Virus record (IMG/VR): IMGVR_UViG_3300032331_001184
Coordinates: 1 to 23,847 of that record
Length of the DNA: 23,847 bases
Source: a virus
Reading direction: 5' to 3' (one strand)
Positions 3,019 to 19,752 of this stretch are shown piece by piece. The translations under genes were made by a program, and so were the position numbers. A model generated the notes under the pieces. It worked only from the letters and a program-made list of their open reading frames with translations, was not told where the DNA came from and made no database searches. Positions within the stretch are counted from its first letter, which is position 1. Each line of letters opens with the position of its first letter.

Positions 3019-3633
3019 ATGGACGTATGTGATCTTTTTCCTTCTGGTTTTTCAGTACATAACTTGAGTGTTGACGAAAATAGCCTCAACAAAATAATGA
3101 AACTATCGAAAGACTCAGATAACTTTGATCGCAATAATAACGGAAATTTCTTACACAAAGAAACCTACATATTCGATACGATTCTAAAAGATTCGAAGTT
3201 GGTGAAAGATATATATGAGTGTATCGATGAGCATGTCACGAAGATTTCGGGTGAAAAACCTAATCTTCGAATCACGCAGAGTTGGTTGAATATCAATCCA
3301 CCAGGTACTAGCCATCATAGGCATAGTCATGGTAACAGTATATTGAGTGGTGTTCTCTACATACAAACGAACGAGTCGAGTGGTAATTTCGTAGTACATA
3401 CACCAAACAAAAGAGCATTTGGTGGTTTCGTAGAAGAGTTCAATAGATATAACTATGAGTTTATCTACTTCACACCTAAGAAATTTGATTTGTTCCTGTT
3501 TCAGAGTTCTCTAGACCACTCAGTAAACGTAAACGAATCACAAGAAGACCGTCTGTCAATATCATTCAATACGTTTTATCGCAGTGATTTCACGATGAAT
3601 GGTGGCCTGACAGAAATAAGATTGCCCGTATAG
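3019..3633 (+). CDS. Putative 2-oxoglutarate/Fe(II)-dependent oxygenase (TIGR02466-like)
   Basis: 204 residues. The double-stranded beta-helix signature is visible: W89, NPPGTSHHRHSHGN (metal-ligand candidates His102 and His104), LSGVLYIQ, a distal His167 in LDHSVN and Arg178 in EDRLSISFN, which would bind the 2OG carboxylate. Length fits the TIGR02466 group, common in T4-like phages. These enzymes hydroxylate or demethylate macromolecules, but the substrate is unknown. The ribosome binding site is weak (TAGAGG). The last 10 bases, including stop TAG, overlap tRNA-Thr, exactly as in the rlpA/tRNA-Asp pair. Confidence 0.82.
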   Translation: MDVCDLFPSGFSVHNLSVDENSLNKIMKLSKDSDNFDRNNNGNFLHKETYIFDTILKDSKLVKDIYECIDEHVTKISGEKPNLRITQSWLNINPPGTSHHRHSHGNSILSGVLYIQTNESSGNFVVHTPNKRAFGGFVEEFNRYNYEFIYFTPKKFDLFLFQSSLDHSVNVNESQEDRLSISFNTFYRSDFTMNGGLTEIRLPV

Positions 3634-3699
3634 CTCATCAGGTAGAGCAACTGATTTGTAATCAGTAGGCGGTGGGTTCGAGTCCTGCTGCGGGCACCA
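3624..3699 (+). tRNA. tRNA-Thr (TGT), overlapping the oxygenase stop
   Basis: Acceptor 3624-3630 pairs with 3689-3695; A73 and CCA 3697-3699. Stem ACTGA/TCAGT and loop TTTGTAA give TGT at 3657-3659. T8-A9-G10 (3631-3633) doubles as the stop codon of the upstream gene. Confidence 0.94.
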
Positions 3700-3704
3700 T
3701 ATAC

Positions 3705-3790
3705 GGAGCGTGGGCAGGATGGTAATGCAGCGGTTTGCTAAACCGTAGAACCGCAAGGTTCAATTGGTTCGATTCCAATACGCTCCGCCA
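3705..3790 (+). tRNA. tRNA-Ser (GCT)
   Basis: Class II tRNA. Acceptor 3705-3711 pairs with 3780-3786; G73 and CCA 3788-3790. Anticodon loop TTGCTAA gives GCT at 3737-3739. A long variable arm (GAACC-GCAA-GGTTC) supports Ser. Five bases separate it from tRNA-Thr. Confidence 0.94.
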
Positions 3791-3804
3791 AAGGATAAGT
3801 AGAA

Positions 3805-4257
3805 ATGAAAAAAGTAGCAGTCGCATTGTTAGTGAGTCTACTAACTATCGTTTCAGCCAGTGCTGATGAAGTGTCAATCATTGGTCATGGTTTCTCTAAG
3901 CATCTTGATAACCATAACTTCAGAGAAAGAAATTATGGTATTGGTCTTAGATATGAGCATGACGACTACGGTGTACAGATAGGTGCGTACCAGAATAGCA
4001 TATATAAGGATAGCGTATACATTGGTATTGATTGGAACTTAATTCAATATCAGACGAGTACATGTTTGAAGTATGATGCTGGTGTCTATTATGGTGCTGT
4101 TACAGGGTATACATATGCTGTGACACCTGTTGTAGGTATACAAGCGGCTGTTAAATGTGAGAATGTGTTTGTCAGAGTTCGAGCAATGCCAGAACCATTC
4201 TATAACTCTAAGGCTGTTGGCTCTATAGAGTTTGGGTTGGTGATAAAGAAGTTTTGA
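3805..4257 (+). CDS. Exported small beta-barrel-like protein
   Basis: 150 residues. A Sec signal peptide (positive MKK start, hydrophobic core, cleavage expected after SASA near residue 20) is followed by an all-beta pattern with aromatic girdles: NYGIGLRYEH, YGVQIGAYQNS, SVYIGIDWNL, AGVYYGAVTGY, VFVRVRAMP and a final FGLVIKKF ending in Phe. Length and alternation suit an eight-strand outer-membrane barrel; a PagP-like or acyl-hydrolase fold is possible, but I see no catalytic motif to assign. Two Cys (about 89 and 118) could form a disulfide. Stop TGA lies one base before tRNA-Trp. It is the second barrel-like cargo gene in the tRNA region and is not an obvious copy of the first. Confidence 0.78.
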   Translation: MKKVAVALLVSLLTIVSASADEVSIIGHGFSKHLDNHNFRERNYGIGLRYEHDDYGVQIGAYQNSIYKDSVYIGIDWNLIQYQTSTCLKYDAGVYYGAVTGYTYAVTPVVGIQAAVKCENVFVRVRAMPEPFYNSKAVGSIEFGLVIKKF

Positions 4258-7950: not shown

Positions 7951-7958
7951 AATAAATA
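7951..7958 (+). promoter_or_regulatory. Late-promoter-like NATAAATA box
   Basis: AATAAATA followed by TACC, just after the terminator and 33 bases before the next start codon. This is the expected place for a T4-like late promoter opening the 7991-11012 block. Confidence 0.6.
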
Positions 7959-7990: not shown

Positions 7991-9160
7991 ATGCAGATAT
8001 CACAAATTATACCTAAAATGACTACCGTGAAGTTCAATTCGATACTGAAAAGTGTCGGTGTTATGTCACATGAGATAGTCAATGCAAAAATGATAGTGCT
8101 ATATGGTCAGACAAAATCTAGATCAGACAGATCAGGCCTACTCAAAGAACTGGCCGGCCTACTAAAAACCTATGGTGCAAAATTTGACGCATCCAGTGCG
8201 GCTTCAGGTGCCGGCGCAGTTATGGTTGGTCAGACGAAGATCATAACCAAACCAGCAAAAACTCAAGGTGGTTATATTCTCAAACCAGGTTTTTTTGGTG
8301 ATCCAAGAGTAAGTCTGGTAGACGAAGACATACCTTTCAACTCATACTATTCTAAGGTCATCTCTGCAATCAATGCCACAAAGAAACTATCAGATGAACA
8401 AAAAGAAGTACTGATTGCAATCACAGAGTACACAAAGAGTCCTGATGCTGCTACCAAACTCAAGGTGAAGAAGATGATGAAAAACTTGGGTCAGACAATT
8501 CAGATAAACACCGTAAACAATGATTTTGGCGAAGTACTAGGACCTATTGCAATACAGAGCTACAGTCTTCTGCCTATAGACTATAGATCAGCAGTTGTAA
8601 GGATACCTGGTAGATCCAATGAACCGTTGTTGGACTATAAGATAACAGACAATAAGAATGAATATAAAATTTCTGCCAAGTCTGGTACTACTACGAATAC
8701 ACTAAAACCTGCCGATGTTTTGAGTCTTATTGATGAGAACCCTAAGTTGAAGAAGAGATGGGGTAAGACTCCTGAATATACCATAATCAAGCTTCTGAAT
8801 GAAGGCACCACAAAGCAAGGCCCAATTGATACTGGTATGTGGATGAAGAAGAACGGTTTCGAATCTGAATTTGGCTGGTTAAAAAATGATGTGTACACCG
8901 AAGAGAGTAGACAGAAGTGTGAAGACACGATAGTTAAAATTTCCAGAGAATCAATAGACTTCACACCATTGTTCAAAGATGCAACCGATTCGAAAATATT
9001 CTATGTGAAATTTAGAATGACGATAATGGGTGAGGTAGAATGGAAATTGGTAGAAACACCAAAAGATAAGAGTGAAGAAAAGAAGACGCAGAAGAGAGTC
9101 TCATTCAGGTCGAAGAACTTTGTTGGCAGAGCAAAAGATAAGTTAGGTTTCCAAGTATGA
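7991..9160 (+). CDS. Uncharacterised late protein, possible PD-(D/E)XK-like core
   Basis: 389 residues, basic. The N-terminal half is helical and Lys-rich. The central part holds NDFGEVLGPI (Glu181), LLDYKITDNKNEYKISAKSG (Asp215, Lys230) and TNTLKPADVL. The order Glu, Asp, then x-x-Lys on adjacent strands resembles a PD-(D/E)XK nuclease core with Ser-Ala-Lys in the last motif, but this is inference only. A C-terminal Lys/Arg-rich tail (about 345-389) could bind nucleic acid. The ATGA overlap with the next gene ties it to the KWDG protein and HAD phosphatase. The start lies behind GATGAGAA, a weak ribosome binding site. Confidence 0.8.
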   Translation: MQISQIIPKMTTVKFNSILKSVGVMSHEIVNAKMIVLYGQTKSRSDRSGLLKELAGLLKTYGAKFDASSAASGAGAVMVGQTKIITKPAKTQGGYILKPGFFGDPRVSLVDEDIPFNSYYSKVISAINATKKLSDEQKEVLIAITEYTKSPDAATKLKVKKMMKNLGQTIQINTVNNDFGEVLGPIAIQSYSLLPIDYRSAVVRIPGRSNEPLLDYKITDNKNEYKISAKSGTTTNTLKPADVLSLIDENPKLKKRWGKTPEYTIIKLLNEGTTKQGPIDTGMWMKKNGFESEFGWLKNDVYTEESRQKCEDTIVKISRESIDFTPLFKDATDSKIFYVKFRMTIMGEVEWKLVETPKDKSEEKKTQKRVSFRSKNFVGRAKDKLGFQV

Positions 9161-10392
9161 TTTCATTTTCAAGCTATCTCAATGAATCTAAAGAAGGTAA
9201 GAATGTTCATTTGGAGCACCTGCAAGATGAGGTGTTGAATGGCGGTGTCACTGGTACCAGAAGTGCTATTTACTTTCTCACTTCTCTGAGAGATATGCTG
9301 GCTGGACATGCTAGTGAAGCCAGAGTTAATCTTACCACAAAGTGGGATGGAGCGCCTGCTGTTTTTGCTGGTATCAATCCAGAAAACGGTAAATTTTTCG
9401 TTGGTACTAAAGGTGTCTTTGCAAAGAACGCAAAACTCAATTATACCGATGCTGACATTGATGCAAACCATCCTGGTGAAGGTTTAAACAAGAAGCTAAA
9501 GATTGCTCTAAGATATCTCAGAGAACTTGGTATCACTGGTGTTATTCAAGGTGACATGATGTTCACCAAAGAAGACCTTAAAAATCAAACTATAGATGGC
9601 GTTGATTATGTTATCTTCCAACCTAACACTGTTGTATATGCTGTACCTGCTGATTCTAATCTCGCTAAACAGATAACTACAGCACAGATGGGTATTGTCT
9701 GGCATACCACATATGTTGGCCCTGCACTAGAAGATATGAAAGCTTCGTTTGGTGTTGATATCGGGCATCTCAAGCAAACCCGAAATGTCTGGTTCAGAGA
9801 TGCTTCATTCGTTGATGCTACAGGCACAGCCACATTCACCGCGCCAGAGACCGCAGCACTTAACTCTATCCTTACAGCCGCCGGTAATCTATTCAGAACC
9901 ATATCTGCCCGCACACTGAATGAGATTGCTACGAACGATGCCTACAAGGTACAGATCAAGGCCTGGAACAATTCTAAGGTTCGCGAAGGTCAAGCCATCA
10001 CAAATACGTCCGAGCATGTTAAAGGATTAATTCTTTCGATTGAGGAAAGAATGAACAAGTCAATTGCCGAGGCCAAGAAAGCTGACACGAAGGCCAACCG
10101 TCAGCGTGAAAAAACCATTGTGGTAGGTTGGTATAAGGCCAACAAAGATGAGTTGAAGAAGATTTTCGACTTGCAAAACCTGATAATTGATGCTAAACTA
10201 ATGATAGTCAGAAAGCTGGAAAAGATACAGGGTGTAGTAGGAACATTTAAGAGAACTGAGAATGGCTATACCGTAACAACACCAGAAGGATTCGTGGCCG
10301 TCGATAGACTGAAAGGAAATGCAGTCAAGTTAATCGACCAGCTAGAGTTCGCTTTCAATAACTTCACAGCAACAAAGAACTGGTCGAAATGA
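9157..10392 (+). CDS. DUF6267-like protein with a ligase-type KWDG motif and T4-like capsid-targeting N-terminus
   Basis: 411 residues. The N-terminus MISFSSYLNE-S has Leu8-Asn9-Glu10, matching the position and type of the prohead-protease site in T4 internal proteins. The core has LTTKWDGAPAVFAG (Lys62-Trp-Asp64-Gly65), FVGTKG, TGVIQGDMMF (Asp133) and GIVWHTTY. KxDG is motif I of covalent nucleotidyltransferases (DNA/RNA ligases, capping enzymes), and GVIQGDMM resembles the following DGE motif. A C-terminal helical region ends EFAFNNFTATKNW. Homologues are common in T4-like marine phages. Nucleotidylation activity is inferred. It overlaps both neighbours by ATGA. Confidence 0.82.
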   Translation: MISFSSYLNESKEGKNVHLEHLQDEVLNGGVTGTRSAIYFLTSLRDMLAGHASEARVNLTTKWDGAPAVFAGINPENGKFFVGTKGVFAKNAKLNYTDADIDANHPGEGLNKKLKIALRYLRELGITGVIQGDMMFTKEDLKNQTIDGVDYVIFQPNTVVYAVPADSNLAKQITTAQMGIVWHTTYVGPALEDMKASFGVDIGHLKQTRNVWFRDASFVDATGTATFTAPETAALNSILTAAGNLFRTISARTLNEIATNDAYKVQIKAWNNSKVREGQAITNTSEHVKGLILSIEERMNKSIAEAKKADTKANRQREKTIVVGWYKANKDELKKIFDLQNLIIDAKLMIVRKLEKIQGVVGTFKRTENGYTVTTPEGFVAVDRLKGNAVKLIDQLEFAFNNFTATKNWSK

Positions 10393-11012
10393 AATCTCTC
10401 TATGAATATCTAGAAGAAGCCAAAGAACAAACGGGAATGTTGCTCAACATTTTCGATATTGATGATACACTATTCATATCACAGGCCTCTGTCGTGATTA
10501 TGAAAGACGGTGAGAAGGTTCGTGAACTGAAGTCTGGTGAGTTCAACACCTATAAGTTGAAACCAGGTGAAGAGTATGATTTCGCTCAGTTTAGGTCTGG
10601 TGAACATTTCAAGAAGACTGCGGTGCCTATCGATAAGATGATTGACCGCTTGAAGAGAGCCTTTCAAGACACCAATTCGAAGACTATCATCGTCACCGCA
10701 AGGTCCGACTTCTTCGATAAAGGTCCTTTCTTGCAGAAGTTTAGAGACCATGGTATTCCAATCGACCAGATTTATATCGAACGAGCTGGTAACCTCCAGA
10801 AGCTAAAGGCTGACGCGAAGACCAATATCACCAAGGCGGTTATCATTCGCAAGTACATCGCTTCTGGTAAATACAATAAGATCCGCATGTGGGATGACCA
10901 TAGAGGTAATCTCGAAACGCTTCTGAAGCTGAATAAACTACATCCAGAAATCAAGATTGAGGCCTACTTGGTCGATCCAGAGACAGGTGAAAGCACCAGA
11001 TATACTAAATAA
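10389..11012 (+). CDS. HAD-superfamily phosphatase with capsid-targeting-like N-terminus
   Basis: 207 residues. Haloacid dehalogenase motifs in order: I, FDIDDTLF (Asp23, Asp25); II, IIVTARSD (Thr103); III, Lys149 in TKAVIIRKYI; IV, MWDDHRGNL (Asp169, Asp170). The size and cap-poor layout resemble polynucleotide 3'-phosphatase or 5'-nucleotidase members. The first ten residues, MKSLYEYLEE-A, precede the catalytic domain and carry Leu8-Glu9-Glu10, as in T4 internal proteins. It overlaps the KWDG protein by ATGA and precedes the kinase-bearing polyprotein, so phosphatase, kinase and nucleotidyltransferase sit together. The substrate is unknown. Confidence 0.87.
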   Translation: MKSLYEYLEEAKEQTGMLLNIFDIDDTLFISQASVVIMKDGEKVRELKSGEFNTYKLKPGEEYDFAQFRSGEHFKKTAVPIDKMIDRLKRAFQDTNSKTIIVTARSDFFDKGPFLQKFRDHGIPIDQIYIERAGNLQKLKADAKTNITKAVIIRKYIASGKYNKIRMWDDHRGNLETLLKLNKLHPEIKIEAYLVDPETGESTRYTK

Positions 11013-11040: not shown

Positions 11041-14000
11041 ATGAAAACAATAGCGGTTTATCCTGGCCGTTTCCAACCTTTTCACAAAGGTCACGCCCAG
11101 GTCTATAAGTGGTTGAAGAGTAAATTTGGTAACGCAACCATTGCAACATCCAATAAAGTAGAAGCTCCAAAGAGCCCTTTCACCTTCACTGAAAAGAAGA
11201 AGATGATGGAGCTATCTGGTGTCACCTCTACTGACATTCACGAAGTTCGCAGTCCATATATCTCATCTGAAGTTTTACGAGGCTACGATGGTTCAAAGAC
11301 CATTGTAGTCTTTGCTATTTCCCAGAAAGACATGGAAGAAGATCCACGTTTCTCTTTCAAGCCAACCAAGTCTGGTCAACCCAGCTATCTACAACCATAT
11401 CCAAAAGACGGTAAAGGTGCAAAACCTTTCGGTGATCCTGATAAACCTAAGGCCTATGTGGTCGTAACACCAACATTCGATTTCGAAGTGCTTGGTGAAC
11501 CTGCAAGGTCTGCTACAGAAGTTCGCAAGCAATTTGCTAATGCCGACCATGGTACTCAGATCAAGATCATCAAAGACCTCTTTGGTAAATATGATAAAGG
11601 TATTCACAAAGTTATGGATGAAAAAATTAAGGGTGCGATGGCATCCGCACCAAAACCAGTTTCTATCAAGAAGATTAGAGCCAAACTCAAAGAAGAAAAT
11701 ATCAATGAGGTATCAAAAGTAAAATTGAGTTCTAAGCCTGATGATTTTGGAGCTTATGTGCGCGACACTGGTGATAAACCAGAAAAAACTTCAACTATAC
11801 CAATTCATAAAATATCTGTGCATGAGCCTGATGATAAGTTTGATAATCCAGAACATGCTAAAAATTTAGGTAAAATTGCAAAGTCGATCAAAGCTGGTAA
11901 AGAAATGCCACCTATATTAGTTCGAAGACATGGTATAGATAGATTTCAAGTTGTTGATGGTCATCATAGATTGAAAGCTCATAAAATGGCCGGCAAGAAA
12001 GAAATTTCGGTCAGGGTGCTTTCACCAGCCAACGTCAAAGAGATCAAAGAAGACCATGTAGAAGATATTGGTGACCTGAACCATGAGAAGTTTGGTCCAA
12101 TGCTGGACACCTTCACACAGTTTGCATCGAAGAAGCTTGGTATCAAGTCACTACCTAAGATGAGACTTGAAAAAGAACCAATGAGTAATAGTTTTGGTGG
12201 TTATACTCCAGGCGAAAAGTCTATTGTAGTAATAAGCAAGAACCGCCATCCTATGGATGTGTTCAGGACCGTTGCTCATGAATTGGTCCATCACAAGCAA
12301 AATGAGGATGGTCGTCTTGGCAAAGATATTTCCAATGAAGGTGCAACAGGTTCCGATATTGAAAACGAAGCCAATTCGGAAGCTGGCAAGATTATGCGCT
12401 GGTTTGCGAAGTCTAATCCAGAAATGTTCAAGTCTGGTTATGTCACCGAAGAAACGATAACCGAAGGTATCAACGATCCAGGTACATTCAAGGCTGTATT
12501 CTTGGCTGGTGGACCTGGTTCAGGTAAAGACTATGTGATGAAGCAAACCCTTGATGGTATGGGCCTGCAAGAAATCAATTCAGATATTGCATTTGAGTTT
12601 CTTATGCGTAAGGCTGGTTTGAACTTCAAGATGCCTGAGAGTGAACGTGTCGAACGTGACCTCGTGCGCGGGCGTGGAAAGAACATCACCAAAGAGCGCC
12701 AGCGTCTTGCACTAGCAGGTCGTCGTGGTGTTATCATCAATGGTACCGCTGATGATCCAGAACATGTGGCTTCTATCAAGAAAGAACTAGAAGCCCTAGG
12801 CTATAGCACCATGATGGTGTTTGTGAATACCTCAGATAAGGTATCACAAGAACGTAATATCGGTAGAGGTGAGGCCGGTGGGCGCGCAGTACCAGAAGAC
12901 ATTCGCAAAGATAAGTGGGAAGCATGTCAGGCTGCTATGCCTGTTCTTGCAAAGCTATTTGGTAAAGATAACTTCGTTGCAGTAGATAATAGCAATGATC
13001 TTCGCACTGCACCACCTGAAGTAAAGAAGAAGGTTGAGGGTGAGTTTCAGAACATTTTCAAGATGACAAAGAAGTTTGTTGCTCGTCAACCAAATGATAA
13101 TCCTGCGGCTGCTGCATGGAATCAATCTGAGATGCAGAGACGCAATATGCAGTCTTTCGTACCACCAAGTACAACTGCATTTGGTACAGGTTCGGTTCAA
13201 CGTGGTGCAGTTCAGGCCTCTGATGCAATACCAGCAGACCAAGATAACGTACAGCAAGTTTCACAAGCACCATCACCTAATGAACAAACGCAGGCTCAGC
13301 GCCTTGGTTTGACATACTACGGTTTTGGTCGTTATGGTACAACAATAAAAGGAAAACATACCGTAACTTATATTTCTCAGAATGGTAAGTTAGTACCTAA
13401 GCAGAGACAGATAGCGGAAGACCTTCGCAAGTGGTTTAGCAAAACTAATCCTGAAGGTGGGTGGAAAAGAATCAACTCTAAGGGTGAAGCTATTGGTCCT
13501 TGTGCTAGAGAGCCTGGTGAACCTAAACCAAAGTGTATGTCCAATGAAAAGAGAGCGTTACTAACTAAAAAAGAAAGAGCCTCTGCTGTTCGAGCAAAGC
13601 GTAAGCACGATCCTAATCCAGAAAGAAAAGGTGATCCTATCAATGTATCAAACTTTGGTAAGGGTAAAATTGGTGAGGCGTGCTGGGATGGTTACAAGGC
13701 AAAAGGTATGAAGAAAAAAGGTAACAGAATGGTACCTAACTGCGTTCCTGTAAGTGAAGCAAATGCAGCCGCTATAGCGGCAGCAACAGCAATAGCAAAG
13801 AAGAAGTCTGGTAATTATGATTCTAAAGGGCTTAGAAAAACGCCATATAAAAATCCAGATGCACCAAATGTAAAATCAAATGAAGAGAGAAGAAAAGAAA
13901 TGAAGAAAGAAGAATATCTTCAGGAGAAAAACGTACCTACAAATCCAAGTCTTTGGTCTCAAGCCAAGTCTATGGCTAGATCCAAGTTTGATGTATATCC

Positions 14001-14991
14001 TTCTGCCTATGCTAATGGTTGGGCATCGAAGTGGTATAAGTCTAAAGGTGGTGGTTGGAAAACTCAAGCAGATGAGAGTTTTGAAAACATGGTCAATGAG
14101 AACACACCATCAGATCGTGAGTGGGGTAAAAATAGTCTCACCAAGATTTATAAAGAGAATACACCTGGTCAAACTTTTCCAGAAAATCCACTATCTGAGA
14201 AAAATGTGAAAGAAGGTAAAGTTCTTCCAGACCTCACACAAAAGCCAATTGAACCTAAACATTCAAAGCAGTATATGGATCGAATAAAAGATAAAAAAGC
14301 TAAGAGAGCTGAGAATAAGCGTGAAAGAGGTGAAGCACTGAAATTTGCATCTTATATGTGGTCAAAGAAGCTTGCTCAAGAAGACAATGCGCCTGCACTA
14401 GGCTATGAGTTTGGTAGAGATGGTATAGGACCAACATTTGGCACCATTCGTTCACCATCAGGATTTGGTGGATATTCTATACCTATGTCAGAATCAGTAG
14501 CAGCATGGGCCAGCAAAGATGAGACCATAGAGCGTTTCATCACCAAGTATGGCGAACAGGCTGAACAAAAGCTATATGAAGCTTGTGAGAGATTGAGTGA
14601 AATCAAATCTACTCCAAATACAAGCAAAGGTTTCAATGGGCTTCGTGAGTCATGGGAAGCTATCGGCGGGCGTGACATGGGTACTGTACCAAAACAAGGT
14701 AAAGAAGAGGTAGACGAAGCTTCGGCCGCATGGCAGCGCAAAGAAGGTAAAAATCCAACTGGTGGTTTGAACAAGAAGGGTATCGCCTCTTATCGCAGAG
14801 AGAATCCTGGTTCTAAGCTATCACTTGCAGTCACAACCAAACCATCTAAGTTGAAGCCTGGTTCTAAGGCTGCAAACCGTCGCAAGTCATTTTGCGCCCG
14901 TATGGGTGGTATGCGCGGGCCCATGAAAGATGAAAAAGGTAGACCAACAAGAAAAGCATTGTCGCTCCGCAAATGGAATTGCGAAGAATAA
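11041..14991 (+). CDS. 1316-residue modular enzyme polyprotein: nucleotidyltransferase, ParB/Srx-like, HExxH peptidase, P-loop kinase and DUF modules
   Basis: Modules in order: a NMNAT/cytidylyltransferase-like domain (about 1-195; GRFQPFHKGH at 9-18, RSATEVR at 156-162); a ParB/sulfiredoxin-like domain (about 225-330; PPILVRR, VVDGHHRLKA at 304-313); a metallopeptidase-like domain (about 340-460; HELVH at 413-417, later Glu443/Glu447); a P-loop kinase (about 480-680; GGPGSGKD at 490-497, GRGEAGGR lid); a Pro/Gln/Ser linker (about 700-760); a DUF5872-like module (793-860); ACWDGYK...VPNC (880-901); a PSLW...YPSAYANGW module (969-1000); and a DUF6321-like Cys/Arg-rich end (about 1227-1316). 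Several boundaries carry hydrophobic-x-Glu (LKE218, ITE475, LQE962, VDE1226). Strong ribosome binding site GAGGGG. In relatives many of these modules are separate proteins. Confidence 0.88.
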   Translation: MKTIAVYPGRFQPFHKGHAQVYKWLKSKFGNATIATSNKVEAPKSPFTFTEKKKMMELSGVTSTDIHEVRSPYISSEVLRGYDGSKTIVVFAISQKDMEEDPRFSFKPTKSGQPSYLQPYPKDGKGAKPFGDPDKPKAYVVVTPTFDFEVLGEPARSATEVRKQFANADHGTQIKIIKDLFGKYDKGIHKVMDEKIKGAMASAPKPVSIKKIRAKLKEENINEVSKVKLSSKPDDFGAYVRDTGDKPEKTSTIPIHKISVHEPDDKFDNPEHAKNLGKIAKSIKAGKEMPPILVRRHGIDRFQVVDGHHRLKAHKMAGKKEISVRVLSPANVKEIKEDHVEDIGDLNHEKFGPMLDTFTQFASKKLGIKSLPKMRLEKEPMSNSFGGYTPGEKSIVVISKNRHPMDVFRTVAHELVHHKQNEDGRLGKDISNEGATGSDIENEANSEAGKIMRWFAKSNPEMFKSGYVTEETITEGINDPGTFKAVFLAGGPGSGKDYVMKQTLDGMGLQEINSDIAFEFLMRKAGLNFKMPESERVERDLVRGRGKNITKERQRLALAGRRGVIINGTADDPEHVASIKKELEALGYSTMMVFVNTSDKVSQERNIGRGEAGGRAVPEDIRKDKWEACQAAMPVLAKLFGKDNFVAVDNSNDLRTAPPEVKKKVEGEFQNIFKMTKKFVARQPNDNPAAAAWNQSEMQRRNMQSFVPPSTTAFGTGSVQRGAVQASDAIPADQDNVQQVSQAPSPNEQTQAQRLGLTYYGFGRYGTTIKGKHTVTYISQNGKLVPKQRQIAEDLRKWFSKTNPEGGWKRINSKGEAIGPCAREPGEPKPKCMSNEKRALLTKKERASAVRAKRKHDPNPERKGDPINVSNFGKGKIGEACWDGYKAKGMKKKGNRMVPNCVPVSEANAAAIAAATAIAKKKSGNYDSKGLRKTPYKNPDAPNVKSNEERRKEMKKEEYLQEKNVPTNPSLWSQAKSMARSKFDVYPSAYANGWASKWYKSKGGGWKTQADESFENMVNENTPSDREWGKNSLTKIYKENTPGQTFPENPLSEKNVKEGKVLPDLTQKPIEPKHSKQYMDRIKDKKAKRAENKRERGEALKFASYMWSKKLAQEDNAPALGYEFGRDGIGPTFGTIRSPSGFGGYSIPMSESVAAWASKDETIERFITKYGEQAEQKLYEACERLSEIKSTPNTSKGFNGLRESWEAIGGRDMGTVPKQGKEEVDEASAAWQRKEGKNPTGGLNKKGIASYRRENPGSKLSLAVTTKPSKLKPGSKAANRRKSFCARMGGMRGPMKDEKGRPTRKALSLRKWNCEE

Positions 14992-15035: not shown

Positions 15036-16121
15036 ATGCACGGAAATAATAACTTCACTAAGAAAGACCCGTTGGTCAATGCAGTAGCAAAAGTGATGCA
15101 AGAGAATGAAACTCGTCGTCAAATCGAAAAGCAGTTTCAAGAAGAAATTGGCATTCAGGCCAAGCGCGAACTTCCATTCCAGAAACATGCAGAGTATGAC
15201 CGTCTTCTTGCAGAAAGAACAGCAGTTGCTCTTAATGAAGAACTAAAAGGTAATCAACACAAGATCGATGCTAACAAGAACAATAAAGTTGATGCACAAG
15301 ACTTCAAGATTTTGAAGGCTCAAAAGAAACAGCCACAGGGTGCAGACTTTGCAGCACAGAGACGTAAAGAACGTGTCGCATCTAATGGGCGTATGGATGA
15401 GGCTGACTATCCGCCAGGTGCTGGGCAAGATACTGCTAAAGACAAAGACCCTGATATGATGAAGGGTGCACCAGGCGAAAAAGATAGTACACCAAAGGCG
15501 GCTCCAATGCCACCTAAGCGCCCTGCCAATATGGAAGAAGAGGCCGAGCAGATCGATGAGCTTTCTAAGAAGACACTCGGCTCGTATGTAAAGAAGGCCT
15601 CACATGATGTAGCAACTAAGTCTGCTGCAACTGGTCGCTATGCTGAAAGAGCAAACAAAGAAGAAGATGATCGCAAGAAAACAGGCGACTATTCAGGCTA
15701 TCGTCAAGGGCGTAAAGACAATGAAACGGCTGACAAGATGTTTGGTAAGTCATGGAAGCGCCGTCAAGGTATTGCTAAGGCAGTTGACAAGATGACCAAA
15801 GAAGAAACCCTTGCTGAACGTAACGAAGAAAACAAAGGCAAGAAAGATGCTGCCGTTACTTCAATCGGTGCAAAGAACAAAGATGAAAAGCATCTTGGTT
15901 CTAAGGGTACAGGAATCCGTAATAGCATAGCAGACAAGATTCGTGGTCGTGAAGTAACATCAGGTAAAGATCGTCTTGAAGAAAAGGCACCTCCAGGTGA
16001 CAAGTATGAGCGCATGGTGAAGCACATCAAGTCCAAGTATTCTAAAGATGGTCTATCAGACAAAGAAAAGTCAATCGCCTATGCTACTGCATGGAAGGCA
16101 AAGAACAAGGATTCAGAATAA
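15036..16121 (+). CDS. Lys/Glu-rich late protein with an EF-hand-like loop and an ELSKKTLxxYVKKA module
   Basis: 361 residues, highly charged and largely helical or disordered. Residues about 80-95 read KIDANKNNKVDAQDF, an EF-hand/dockerin-type calcium loop (D1, N3, N5, hydrophobic 8, D9, D12). A module at about 171-257 (IDELSKKTLGSYVKKAS ... WKRRQGIAKAVDKM) recurs in the 18175-19752 product. The C-terminus, PPGDKYERMVKHIKSKYS ... KSIAYATAWKAKNK, is a widespread phage motif. Promoter box and AAAGGAAC ribosome binding site upstream. Probably an internal head or structural protein by composition and context; no enzyme motif is seen. It overlaps the next gene by TAATG. Confidence 0.82.
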   Translation: MHGNNNFTKKDPLVNAVAKVMQENETRRQIEKQFQEEIGIQAKRELPFQKHAEYDRLLAERTAVALNEELKGNQHKIDANKNNKVDAQDFKILKAQKKQPQGADFAAQRRKERVASNGRMDEADYPPGAGQDTAKDKDPDMMKGAPGEKDSTPKAAPMPPKRPANMEEEAEQIDELSKKTLGSYVKKASHDVATKSAATGRYAERANKEEDDRKKTGDYSGYRQGRKDNETADKMFGKSWKRRQGIAKAVDKMTKEETLAERNEENKGKKDAAVTSIGAKNKDEKHLGSKGTGIRNSIADKIRGREVTSGKDRLEEKAPPGDKYERMVKHIKSKYSKDGLSDKEKSIAYATAWKAKNKDSE

Positions 16122-18174: not shown

Positions 18175-19752
18175 ATGAAAACTTTCAAAAGATATATTAA
18201 AGAAGAAAATGCTCCAAGATTTGGAACATCATCAGGCATAACTGATGTAAACGATGGTGCTGTCAGAGACAATATCAATACTATATTGACGATGACAACA
18301 GCAAGAAAATATATCACACCTTATCTTGCTCTAGAAAGAGTAAAGAAAGCCTTGGCAAATTTTCATATCTTCTTACCAAACTATTCATTCTTAGAAGGTG
18401 ATTCTGGAATGGCCGTCTTTGATGTCAAACAATTTGGTGACAAAATGGGTATGACAGATGACGGTCAATTCATCAAAGAAGTTCCACCAATCTATCATGT
18501 ATATTTTGAATATCAGTTGTCTGACTGTGGAATGTTCGAAGCTTTCTGTGAAGTGGTAAGTAAGGCTGAACTCGATGAGATTCTCGAAGATGTTGAGGAT
18601 GAAATGAATGAGGCTGAGTCAGAAGAGCTTGAAGAAGAGGCACACACAGCCGAACCAGAAACAGGTGAACGTAAGACACCTGGTTCGAATCAAGAACCAT
18701 TCGAAAAAGCATCGGCTCCAAAACCTATAAAGAAGCGAACTGATGCTGAAATGGAAAAGAAGAAGCTTGATGAAGTTGTCACCGCTCGTAAGATGACACC
18801 AAAAGAAAAGAAGGCTCGTGCTGAATATATTGTGAAGCATAAAGAAAAACTTGCTGCACACGATACTGGTATCAAAGCTAAGAAAACCGTGAAAGATGTT
18901 AAATCTGAACCTGGTGATTATGGTAGCGAACCAAGCAAGATGGGCCTAAGAAATGCTATCGGTGCTGGCTACTACAAAGTAGACGAAAGTATGGAAGAGA
19001 AGAAAGAAAAAAAGAAGGCCAAGTTCAAAGCTTATCGTGATGAGAGAGATGAGAGTAAGAAGAAGCGTGAAGATATGAAATGGCAAAAACATAGGCTCAC
19101 TAAAGAAGGTATCGATCTTTCTAAGATTACATTGAATAAAAATACAGGCAATATCTCATCTAGTGATCCTAAAGCTGATCTATCTAAAGTAAAAATGGAT
19201 AAGAAGACGGGTAACATATCTGCCACGAATGAAGATAGAATGGATGACCTTGCAGATTCTCTAAAGACCAATAGAGAGCGTCAAAATGCGGCCACCGATC
19301 CTCAAGAAAAAGAGCGTCTTTCAGGGCAACGCGACCGTATGATGAGTACTGCCGATAGAGTACCTAGTCAACCGGCCATCAATGAAATCTCAGCCAAGCT
19401 TGTTGGTAAGGTCAATAAGGCCAGAGCAGTTGATGGTAAGCCAAGTAAGACTAAAACAGCCAGTGCAACTCTATCGAGAGCCGTTGCGAAGAAGTGGCTC
19501 GACTCAGATGTAGGTAAGCTTAAAGAAGAAGAAAACCTTCAAGAACTTTCTGATAAACTAAAGAAGAGATATGTCAAGAAGGCCACAGACGATAAGAAGT
19601 CTGCTGAAAGACAAGCAAGTTTGTCTGACCGTGAAGCAGCCGATACGGGCCGTAGTAAAGAGTCTCGTAAGTCTTTCAAAGATGAATCGAAGTGGCTAAA
19701 AGGTATTGCCTCTAAGAGAGCCAAGGGGCTAGAAATGGCAAATAAGAAGTGA
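18175..19752 (+). CDS. Large late protein with capsid-targeting-like N-terminus and a Lys/Glu-rich modular tail
   Basis: 525 residues. The N-terminus MKTFKRYIKE-E closely follows T4 internal proteins (MKTYQEFIAE-A), with Ile8-Lys9-Glu10. A conserved globular part (about 12-145: SSGITDVNDGAVRDNINTIL, LALERVKKALANFHIFLP, FEYQLSDCGMFEAFCEVV) is typical of T4-like marine phages. Beyond it lie an acidic stretch and Lys/Glu-rich sequence, a 21-residue direct repeat (DLSKxxxxKxTGNIS at 314 and 335), an NEISAKLVGKV...LSRAVAKKWL module (about 404-448) and an ELSDKLKKRYVKKA module (about 455-521) shared with the 15036 product. Probable virion or internal head protein. Confidence 0.83.
   Translation: MKTFKRYIKEENAPRFGTSSGITDVNDGAVRDNINTILTMTTARKYITPYLALERVKKALANFHIFLPNYSFLEGDSGMAVFDVKQFGDKMGMTDDGQFIKEVPPIYHVYFEYQLSDCGMFEAFCEVVSKAELDEILEDVEDEMNEAESEELEEEAHTAEPETGERKTPGSNQEPFEKASAPKPIKKRTDAEMEKKKLDEVVTARKMTPKEKKARAEYIVKHKEKLAAHDTGIKAKKTVKDVKSEPGDYGSEPSKMGLRNAIGAGYYKVDESMEEKKEKKKAKFKAYRDERDESKKKREDMKWQKHRLTKEGIDLSKITLNKNTGNISSSDPKADLSKVKMDKKTGNISATNEDRMDDLADSLKTNRERQNAATDPQEKERLSGQRDRMMSTADRVPSQPAINEISAKLVGKVNKARAVDGKPSKTKTASATLSRAVAKKWLDSDVGKLKEEENLQELSDKLKKRYVKKATDDKKSAERQASLSDREAADTGRSKESRKSFKDESKWLKGIASKRAKGLEMANKK

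Follow-up and report, generated by a model that had tools for sequence, protein, structure and literature searches.

A polyvalent-type chain of phage enzyme modules with putative T4-type prohead protease sites at its joins

The IMG/VR virus record IMGVR_UViG_3300032331_001184 is complete at 23,847 bases, and the whole record was analysed here (the window). It contains 14 tRNA genes, a lysis cassette and further phage genes. The subject of this study is the open reading frame (ORF) at 11041-14991 on the + strand, which we refer to as P0001; eight other ORFs of the window match genomes of the Kyanoviridae (T4-like cyanophages and pelagiphages). P0001 encodes 1316 residues, is open throughout, and starts with an ATG at 11041 that has an in-frame TAG four codons 5' of it. 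A first-pass annotation, made from the sequence alone, had described P0001 as one ORF joining several domains, and had suggested that it is split during head maturation at hydrophobic-x-Glu tripeptides, either by the prohead protease or by its own peptidase domain. The ORF and its domains were confirmed. The same chain recurs, with modules gained or lost, in the related loci L002/L088 (1090 residues), L101 (1309 residues), L096 (1173 residues), L098 and L129, so the fusion is real and not an accident of frame or assembly. The defence-system models that were run gave zero matches.

P0001 consists, in order, of cytidylyltransferase/NMNAT-like, ParB-like, HExxH and P-loop kinase modules, the YYGFGRYG module, several small modules that also occur elsewhere in phages, and a C-terminal DUF6321 module:

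11041..11640, + strand: NMNAT/cytidylyltransferase-like module, residues 1-200, with GRFQPFHKGH and SATEVR (Pfam CTP_transf_like, E 2.4e-9)
11761..12042, + strand: ParB/Srx-like module, about residues 241-334 (as an isolated piece just over the cut-off for ParB_N, E 1.7e-6)
12052..12429, + strand: HExxH metallopeptidase-like module, residues 338-463, with HELVH at 12277-12291
12466..13155, + strand: P-loop kinase module, about residues 476-705 (Zeta_toxin, E 2e-12; AAA_33)
13276..13404, + strand: LGLTYYGFGRYG module, residues 746-788, kept in six of six aligned polyproteins and ordered in the structure model
13420..13668, + strand: DLRKWF module, residues 794-876 (phrog_12753)
13678..13749, + strand: CWDGYK module, residues 880-903 (phrog_9737), with a similar sequence in gp160 of phage S-CREM2
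13927..14070, + strand: PSLW / KFDVYPSAYANGWA module, residues 963-1010, with 30 matches among related loci and a similar sequence in S-CREM2 gp160
14719..14988, + strand: DUF6321 module, residues 1227-1316 (Pfam, E 3.8e-22)

A Foldseek search with a model of residues 1-793 returned polynucleotide kinases first (top match the bacterial enzyme 4gp6, TM 0.68 by target), followed by zeta toxin, adenylate kinases and the NadD/NadM chains that match the NMNAT-like module. The Walker A sequence of the kinase, GGPGSGKD (residues 490-497), has an Asp after the Lys in place of the usual Ser/Thr. This Asp was found in 44 of 68 kinase contexts, and the stand-alone kinases of HTVC008M and Melnitz have T or S. 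A NadR-type reading (NMNAT plus nicotinamide riboside kinase) was considered and rejected, as the kinase is Zeta_toxin/AAA_33-like and its best fold match is a polynucleotide kinase. With the NMNAT domain of L007 as the query, a single reference phage record was matched. Pfam matches of the HExxH module were weak and both under the cut-off (DUF6782, E 0.002; M78, E 0.0065); HELVHHKQ and IENEAN are invariant in relatives, and a Flavobacterium phage carries a homologue in an ORF that bears the annotation NMN adenylyltransferase. DUF6321 also occurs as a stand-alone gene (L003, L010 and others).

The six tripeptides named in the first-pass annotation (LKE218, INE223, IKE337, ITE475, LQE962 and VDE1226) are each present where it placed them, and four further candidates, IAE793, IGE879, VSE906 and VNE1020, were found at module starts. 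They are listed with a slash at the putative cut and with the predicted local distance difference test (pLDDT) from the structure models:

11686..11694, + strand: LKE218, at the left edge of an exchanged cassette; pLDDT <50
11701..11709, + strand: INE223, within a pLDDT <50 stretch (217-290)
12043..12051, + strand: IKE337, with E337 invariant across six polyproteins; pLDDT <50
12457..12465, + strand: ITE475/G, the best-supported candidate, [LI]xE/G in 67 of 69 distinct kinase contexts; pLDDT <50
13411..13419, + strand: IAE793/D, [LIVMF]xE in 38 of 54 contexts; pLDDT <50 where the N-terminal model ends, and close to 62 in the C-terminal model
13669..13677, + strand: IGE879/A, [LIVMF]xE in 18 of 39 contexts; adjoins a pLDDT <50 stretch
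13750..13758, + strand: VSE906, a weak candidate, a border in L004 as well (IGE/A); in the model an ordered helix begins here
13918..13926, + strand: LQE962/K, [LI]xE in 24 of 25 contexts; pLDDT <50
14092..14100, + strand: VNE1020/N, L002 keeps MMNE/NTPSDREWG; pLDDT <50
14710..14718, + strand: VDE1226/A, pre-DUF6321 motif in 61 of 66 T4-like loci and 2 of 20 others; pLDDT <50

The number of such tripeptides was rejected as evidence. P0001 has 14 [LI]xE and 29 [LIVMF]xE, close to the 9.2±2.7 and 21.2±3.8 found in shuffled sequences. Placement, in contrast, was not random, which agrees with the first-pass view that number is chance-like and placement is the evidence; that view holds more strongly than originally stated. 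Module borders were defined by homology, independently of the motif. Local alignments of P0001 to its relatives gave ten clusters of alignment starts, and [LI]xE was found beside 5 of them (window -4 to +8 residues) against 1.3 expected from circular shifts (p 0.003). [LIVMF]xE was found beside 213 of 230 individual alignment starts, against 56 expected (p 0.002). Alignment ends, unlike starts, showed no clear enrichment (p 0.25-0.28 by cluster).

The residues preceding each module were then tabulated over 173 related loci, using module profiles that omitted the motif. Upstream of the kinase, [LI]xE occupied one fixed place in 67 of 69 distinct contexts, although the loci share ancestry and such counts overstate independence. 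At this site P3 was L 56 times, I 11 times, and T and V once each; P2 was free (3.5 bits), P1 was E in 69 of 69 contexts and P1' was G in 69 of 69. A variable P2 between a fixed P3 and P1 is what a short protease rule would be expected to look like. The same motif preceded the PSLW module ([LI]xE, 24/25) and the DLRKWF module ([LIVMF]xE, 38/54), and the rates over all positions of these proteins were 1.1% and 2.2%.

The DUF6321 module allowed T4-like and other backgrounds to be compared. [LIVMF]xE was present within the nine residues before the module in 61 of 66 T4-like loci but in only 2 of 20 others (Fisher p 4e-12; chance expectation about 14%), the others being loci in which neither a Kyanoviridae-like gene nor a kinase gene occurs. 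Of ten proteins scanned from loci of the other or ambiguous class, those recognised were other portal/head types (phrog_1216, phrog_156, phrog_11589) or replication proteins. An initial classification had given 39/44 versus 11/29 (p 7e-6), and was refined after nine of the eleven proved to come from kinase-gene loci. Since DUF6321 carries the motif in T4-like loci and rarely in others, the motif tracks the T4-like background and not the module.

This contrast bears on a simple alternative, namely that P0001 works inside the cell as a normal multi-domain enzyme and is at no stage packaged into the head, with a structural role (e.g. a helix cap) for the residues before each module. The lack of an N-terminal capsid targeting sequence (CTS) on P0001 would fit such an enzyme, and the virion matches from S-CREM2 described below could be carry-over. 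A structural role does not explain why DUF6321 from loci without T4-like genes rarely has the motif. Moreover, the same position is the end of the CTS in stand-alone genes, the border regions are modelled as disordered, and the neighbouring genes starting at 9157, 10389 and 18175 bear CTS-like starts of their own. We regard an intracellular enzyme as distinctly improbable.

In T4, the first ten residues of IPIII suffice for targeting, and gp21 cuts after L/I-x-E (PMC9026906). The stand-alone kinase and NMNAT-kinase relatives of P0001 have starts of the same form as the T4 CTSs. Stand-alone kinases begin with MKTFRELKE/GLND, MKQFKQIIQE/GVYD or MLSFKSFLTE/GLHD, and in named phages with MIPFILKE/GLYD (HTVC008M) and MKTFAELQE/GVYD (Melnitz); NMNAT-kinase genes begin with MKFKDFLLE/, MKFREFITE/A and similar sequences. 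[LIVMF]xE was found at residues 8-14 in 64 of 80 kinase-bearing ORFs, versus 193 of 1213 other long ORFs. The modules of P0001 thus do occur as separate genes in relatives, a point that the first-pass annotation had singled out for checking, and many of these genes have capsid-targeting starts. In L101 an internal join reads KKAMKSFKNLRENLNE/GINDPG, a stand-alone start that was fused in with its own Met retained, so that this fusion keeps MKSFKNLRENLNE/G internally.

A complete CTS carried into a fusion, as in L101, would also be expected if the L/I-x-E at the joins were uncut fossils of fused CTSs, and the chain were packaged and ejected whole. There is a precedent in the N4 virion RNA polymerase (vRNAP), which is packaged unprocessed despite its metallopeptidase domain (PMC5512222). 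A fossil should decay, however, yet L or I at P3 and E at P1 were kept in 67 of 69 kinase contexts while P2 and the residues upstream vary widely, and the joins before PSLW and DUF6321 carry the same motif. Packaging of an uncut chain therefore appears unlikely to us.

The interval between LKE218 and IKE337 differs among relatives. It holds a ParB-like module in the window, a different ParB-like module in L101 and L126 and a Gly-rich stretch in L002, and it is empty in L096, L098 and L129. Comparison of these sequences indicates that the two candidate sites flank a region where cassettes are swapped. The ParB-like cassette of L101 gave matches to DarB-like antirestriction proteins from phages of Burkholderia and Pseudomonas. 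The segment that replaces the ParB module in L002/L088 (L002 about 3508-3858) is a Gly/Ala-rich hydrophobic stretch (VGAALDVAGEIPKVGMAVGAARAIGSA), which had no family match above the cut-off.

The first-pass annotation had named the HExxH domain as one of two possible proteases. Zincin-like domains are the commonest domain of polyvalent proteins and have been proposed as self-processors (PMC5512222), and HExxH and the ENEAN helix are invariant in the polyproteins studied here, so the domain might cleave the chain, either prior to packaging or once inside the host. The border sites, however, are equally conserved where the domain is lacking: of the 61 kinase contexts whose ORF has no HExxH motif, 59 kept [LI]xE/G, as did 8 of the 8 whose ORF has one. 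The motif also fits the gp21 rule and the site in the capsid protein. Processing of the chain by its own HExxH domain is therefore very unlikely in our view, and this half of the first-pass proposal is not supported for the border sites; the other half is supported in that the sites are of the gp21-type L/I-x-E form and linked to T4-like phages. Because the sites persist without HExxH, any cutting at the borders is more likely to be done by gp21. The HExxH domain might nevertheless cleave at other places or target host proteins, and possibly has a substrate other than the border sites.

Two structure models were used to place the sites relative to folded domains; both draw on few sequences, and a low pLDDT serves only as a proxy for an exposed linker. 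In the model of residues 1-793 (mean pLDDT 68), LKE218, INE223, IKE337, VTE470 and ITE475, and IAE793 lie in stretches of pLDDT <50, and the non-border tripeptides IHE68, LGE153 and LQE511 fall in ordered domains. In the model of residues 776-1316 (mean pLDDT 58), LQE962, VNE1020, LSE1053 and VDE1226 are in pLDDT <50 stretches with IGE879 beside one, and VSE906 and LYE1180 are in helices. Structure prediction, which the first-pass annotation had offered as a check, thus puts the L/I-x-E borders of P0001 outside folded domains, and most of the join sites in disordered linkers, with VSE906 as the exception. Judging from the model, VSE906 may not be cut.

Protease and capsid genes were found in relatives. 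Two contigs that carry the same polyprotein, those of L101 (167 kb) and L129 (110 kb), code for Peptidase_S77 (gp21) and Gp23. In the L101 contig, the capsid protein reads VLNE/AAPTN near the position at which T4 gp23 is cut, and the corresponding sites of relatives are YLNE/A and QLTE/A, FLGE/I in HTVC008M and ILTE/T in S-MbCM6. By analogy with T4, the capsid proteins of L101 and its relatives would be cut at these sites.

Virion data are available for counterparts of several modules in the related cyanophage S-CREM2. According to Table 3 of the S-CREM2 report (PMC10665884), mass spectrometry of purified virions detects gp154 (a cytidylyltransferase), gp160 and gp137. In the listed proteins, gp154 starts with MKNFSSFLTE/A and is a CTS-tagged relative of the NMNAT module; gp160 carries, by inspection, LHDWF, CWPGY and WPSAYASG modules, homologous to the DLRKWF, CWDGYK and PSAYA modules; and gp137, detected with only 4 peptides, has a DUF6321-like end. 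Among proteins of two stretches of the S-CREM2 genome, excluding listed tail and baseplate proteins, CTS-like starts were found in 5 of 18 detected versus 4 of 120 undetected proteins (p 0.002; broader patterns p 0.01-0.02). Another virion-detected S-CREM2 protein, gp12 (L171 7704-10313), annotated as a Cas9-like nuclease, has a CTS-like LRFASFMAE/A near residues 17-25, and may perhaps be head cargo.

Taken together, we favour the reading that P0001 is a polyprotein of head-packaged enzymes with gp21-type sites at its joins, to which we assign a probability of about two in three. The ancestral genes would each have had a short N-terminal CTS ending in L/I-x-E, a leader that targets the protein into the prohead and is then removed by the gp21 protease. 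In-frame gene fusion would have retained the L/I-x-E sites at the joins. The whole chain would most likely enter the prohead core and be cut at the joins during head maturation, giving separate nucleotidyltransferase, ParB-like, metallopeptidase and P-loop kinase modules along with several small ones, which would be ejected with the DNA. What the computations show directly is that the modules are fused and shuffled, that the border motif is conserved and depends on a T4-like background, and that gp21 and gp23 are present in contigs with the same polyprotein; head entry, cutting and function after injection are what we infer from them for P0001.

Several observations weigh against this polyprotein reading, apart from the shared ancestry of the loci. 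No cleavage has been observed, and cutting is deduced. The gp21 gene was not seen in the 23.8 kb window, which is too short for head genes, and the S-CREM2 authors caution about carry-over in purification (PMC10665884). The motif precedes the CWDGYK module in 18 of 39 contexts (46%), five T4-like DUF6321 contexts lack it, and the structure model places VSE906 in a helix. A breakpoint test on gap edges in global alignments was null (p 0.25-0.31). We gave it less weight because reordered modules make global alignment misplace gaps, but it is still a failed test. Finally, an N-terminal CTS is missing from P0001 and from its fellow NMNAT-to-DUF6321 chains; leaders of this type are found in the shorter relatives. 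P0001 begins with MKTIAVYPGRFQPF and has an in-frame stop just upstream, and an N-terminal CTS was rejected on the basis of this TAG and of the starts of relatives. For head entry without a leader, another signal must act, such as internal CTS-like stretches (SFENMVNE) or binding to a core protein.

The neighbouring genes with CTS-like starts are the following:

9157..10392, + strand: DUF6267 gene, starts with MISFSSYLNE/S, a T4-like CTS
10389..11012, + strand: HAD / polynucleotide-phosphatase-like gene (phrog_415, E 2e-9), starts with MKSLYEYLEE/A
18175..19752, + strand: gene starting with MKTFKRYIKE/E, a textbook capsid-targeting-like leader; no Pfam or PHROG match

Three invariants of DUF6267, KxDG (residue 62), EG[YF]V (near 377) and K (391), are reminiscent of motifs I, IV and V of nucleotidyltransferases/ligases, and DUF6267 is fused to a cytidylyltransferase in L036 and L057. 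Profile searches against PDB, Pfam and NCBIfam gave no match, so that an RNA ligase remains a lead. The gene at 15036-16121 (361 residues) has EEAEQIDELSKKTLGSYVKKA, with IDE before a module-like stretch, and weak matches to phrog_30733 and phrog_5709. Late-promoter-like heptamers are present at 7952, 14999 and 17525 (ATAAATA) and at 11005 (CTAAATA), about 30-40 bases 5' of the genes at 7991, 15036, 17554 and 11041; the total count of ATAAATA/CTAAATA in the window is at chance level.

The closest known concept is that of polyvalent proteins (Iyer et al. 2017, PMC5512222; P1 DarB/DdrB, N4 vRNAP), long chains of many small enzyme domains, likewise with ParB-like and zincin-like domains, that are thought to be ejected with the DNA. 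P0001, the product of a T4-like phage, resembles them in having several unrelated catalytic and small domains shuffled in one polypeptide. It differs in that the joins of its group carry putative prohead-protease sites, derived from T4-type CTSs, that occur irrespective of the zincin. The survey of 2017 noted a paucity of polyvalent proteins in cyanobacteria (PMC5512222), whereas the P0001 group is related to cyanophages and pelagiphages. With T4 IPI-IPIII and Alt the group shares the L/I-x-E cut motif, the MKxFxxFLxE-type leader (shorter relatives only) and gp21/gp23 in relatives; the T4 internal proteins, however, are single proteins cut near a terminus, and P0001 has several enzymes, many internal candidate sites and, like the other full chains, no leader. 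The head proteins of phiKZ/SPN3US include packaged ejection proteins that gp175/gp245 process extensively after x-x-E (PMC5694885), but there propeptides are removed, no enzyme string is separated, and the protease rule is S/A-x-E. The virion-associated cytidylyltransferase and kinase of cyanophages such as S-CREM2 (PMC10665884), where gp154 is the CTS-tagged NMNAT-type relative of the first module, are encoded by stand-alone genes, and the parts of that report used here do not link them to targeting sequences or protease sites. Our literature search found no paper on DUF6321, and none pairing a CTS with a polyvalent protein. P0001 is best described as a polyvalent-type protein whose joins bear putative sites of the T4-type head-maturation protease.

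A broader reading, which we offer tentatively and hold to be unlikely, is that aquatic T4-like phages fuse capsid-targeted genes into cleavable chains, with the sites serving as points of cassette exchange and the cargo acting as an injected repair kit. Such a kit would comprise an NAD nucleotidyltransferase, a polynucleotide-kinase-like enzyme, a HAD phosphatase and the ligase-like DUF6267 for broken RNA, in place before expression of any phage gene begins. The role of the cargo is a guess: the NMNAT module hints at NAD supply, and the kinase, the HAD neighbour and DUF6267 hint at RNA end repair.

The polyprotein reading joins T4 CTSs with polyvalent phage proteins, which were kept apart in the papers found. 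If it is true, a phage maturation protease works like the polyprotein protease of an RNA virus, and a simple rule, L/I-x-E where a module begins or MKxFxxFLxE where a protein begins, predicts head cargo and cut positions among the many unknown proteins of abundant aquatic phages. Virion mass spectrometry data that already exist could be re-examined for the ends predicted by this rule, and the chains would provide natural examples of the loading of multiple enzymes into a phage head.

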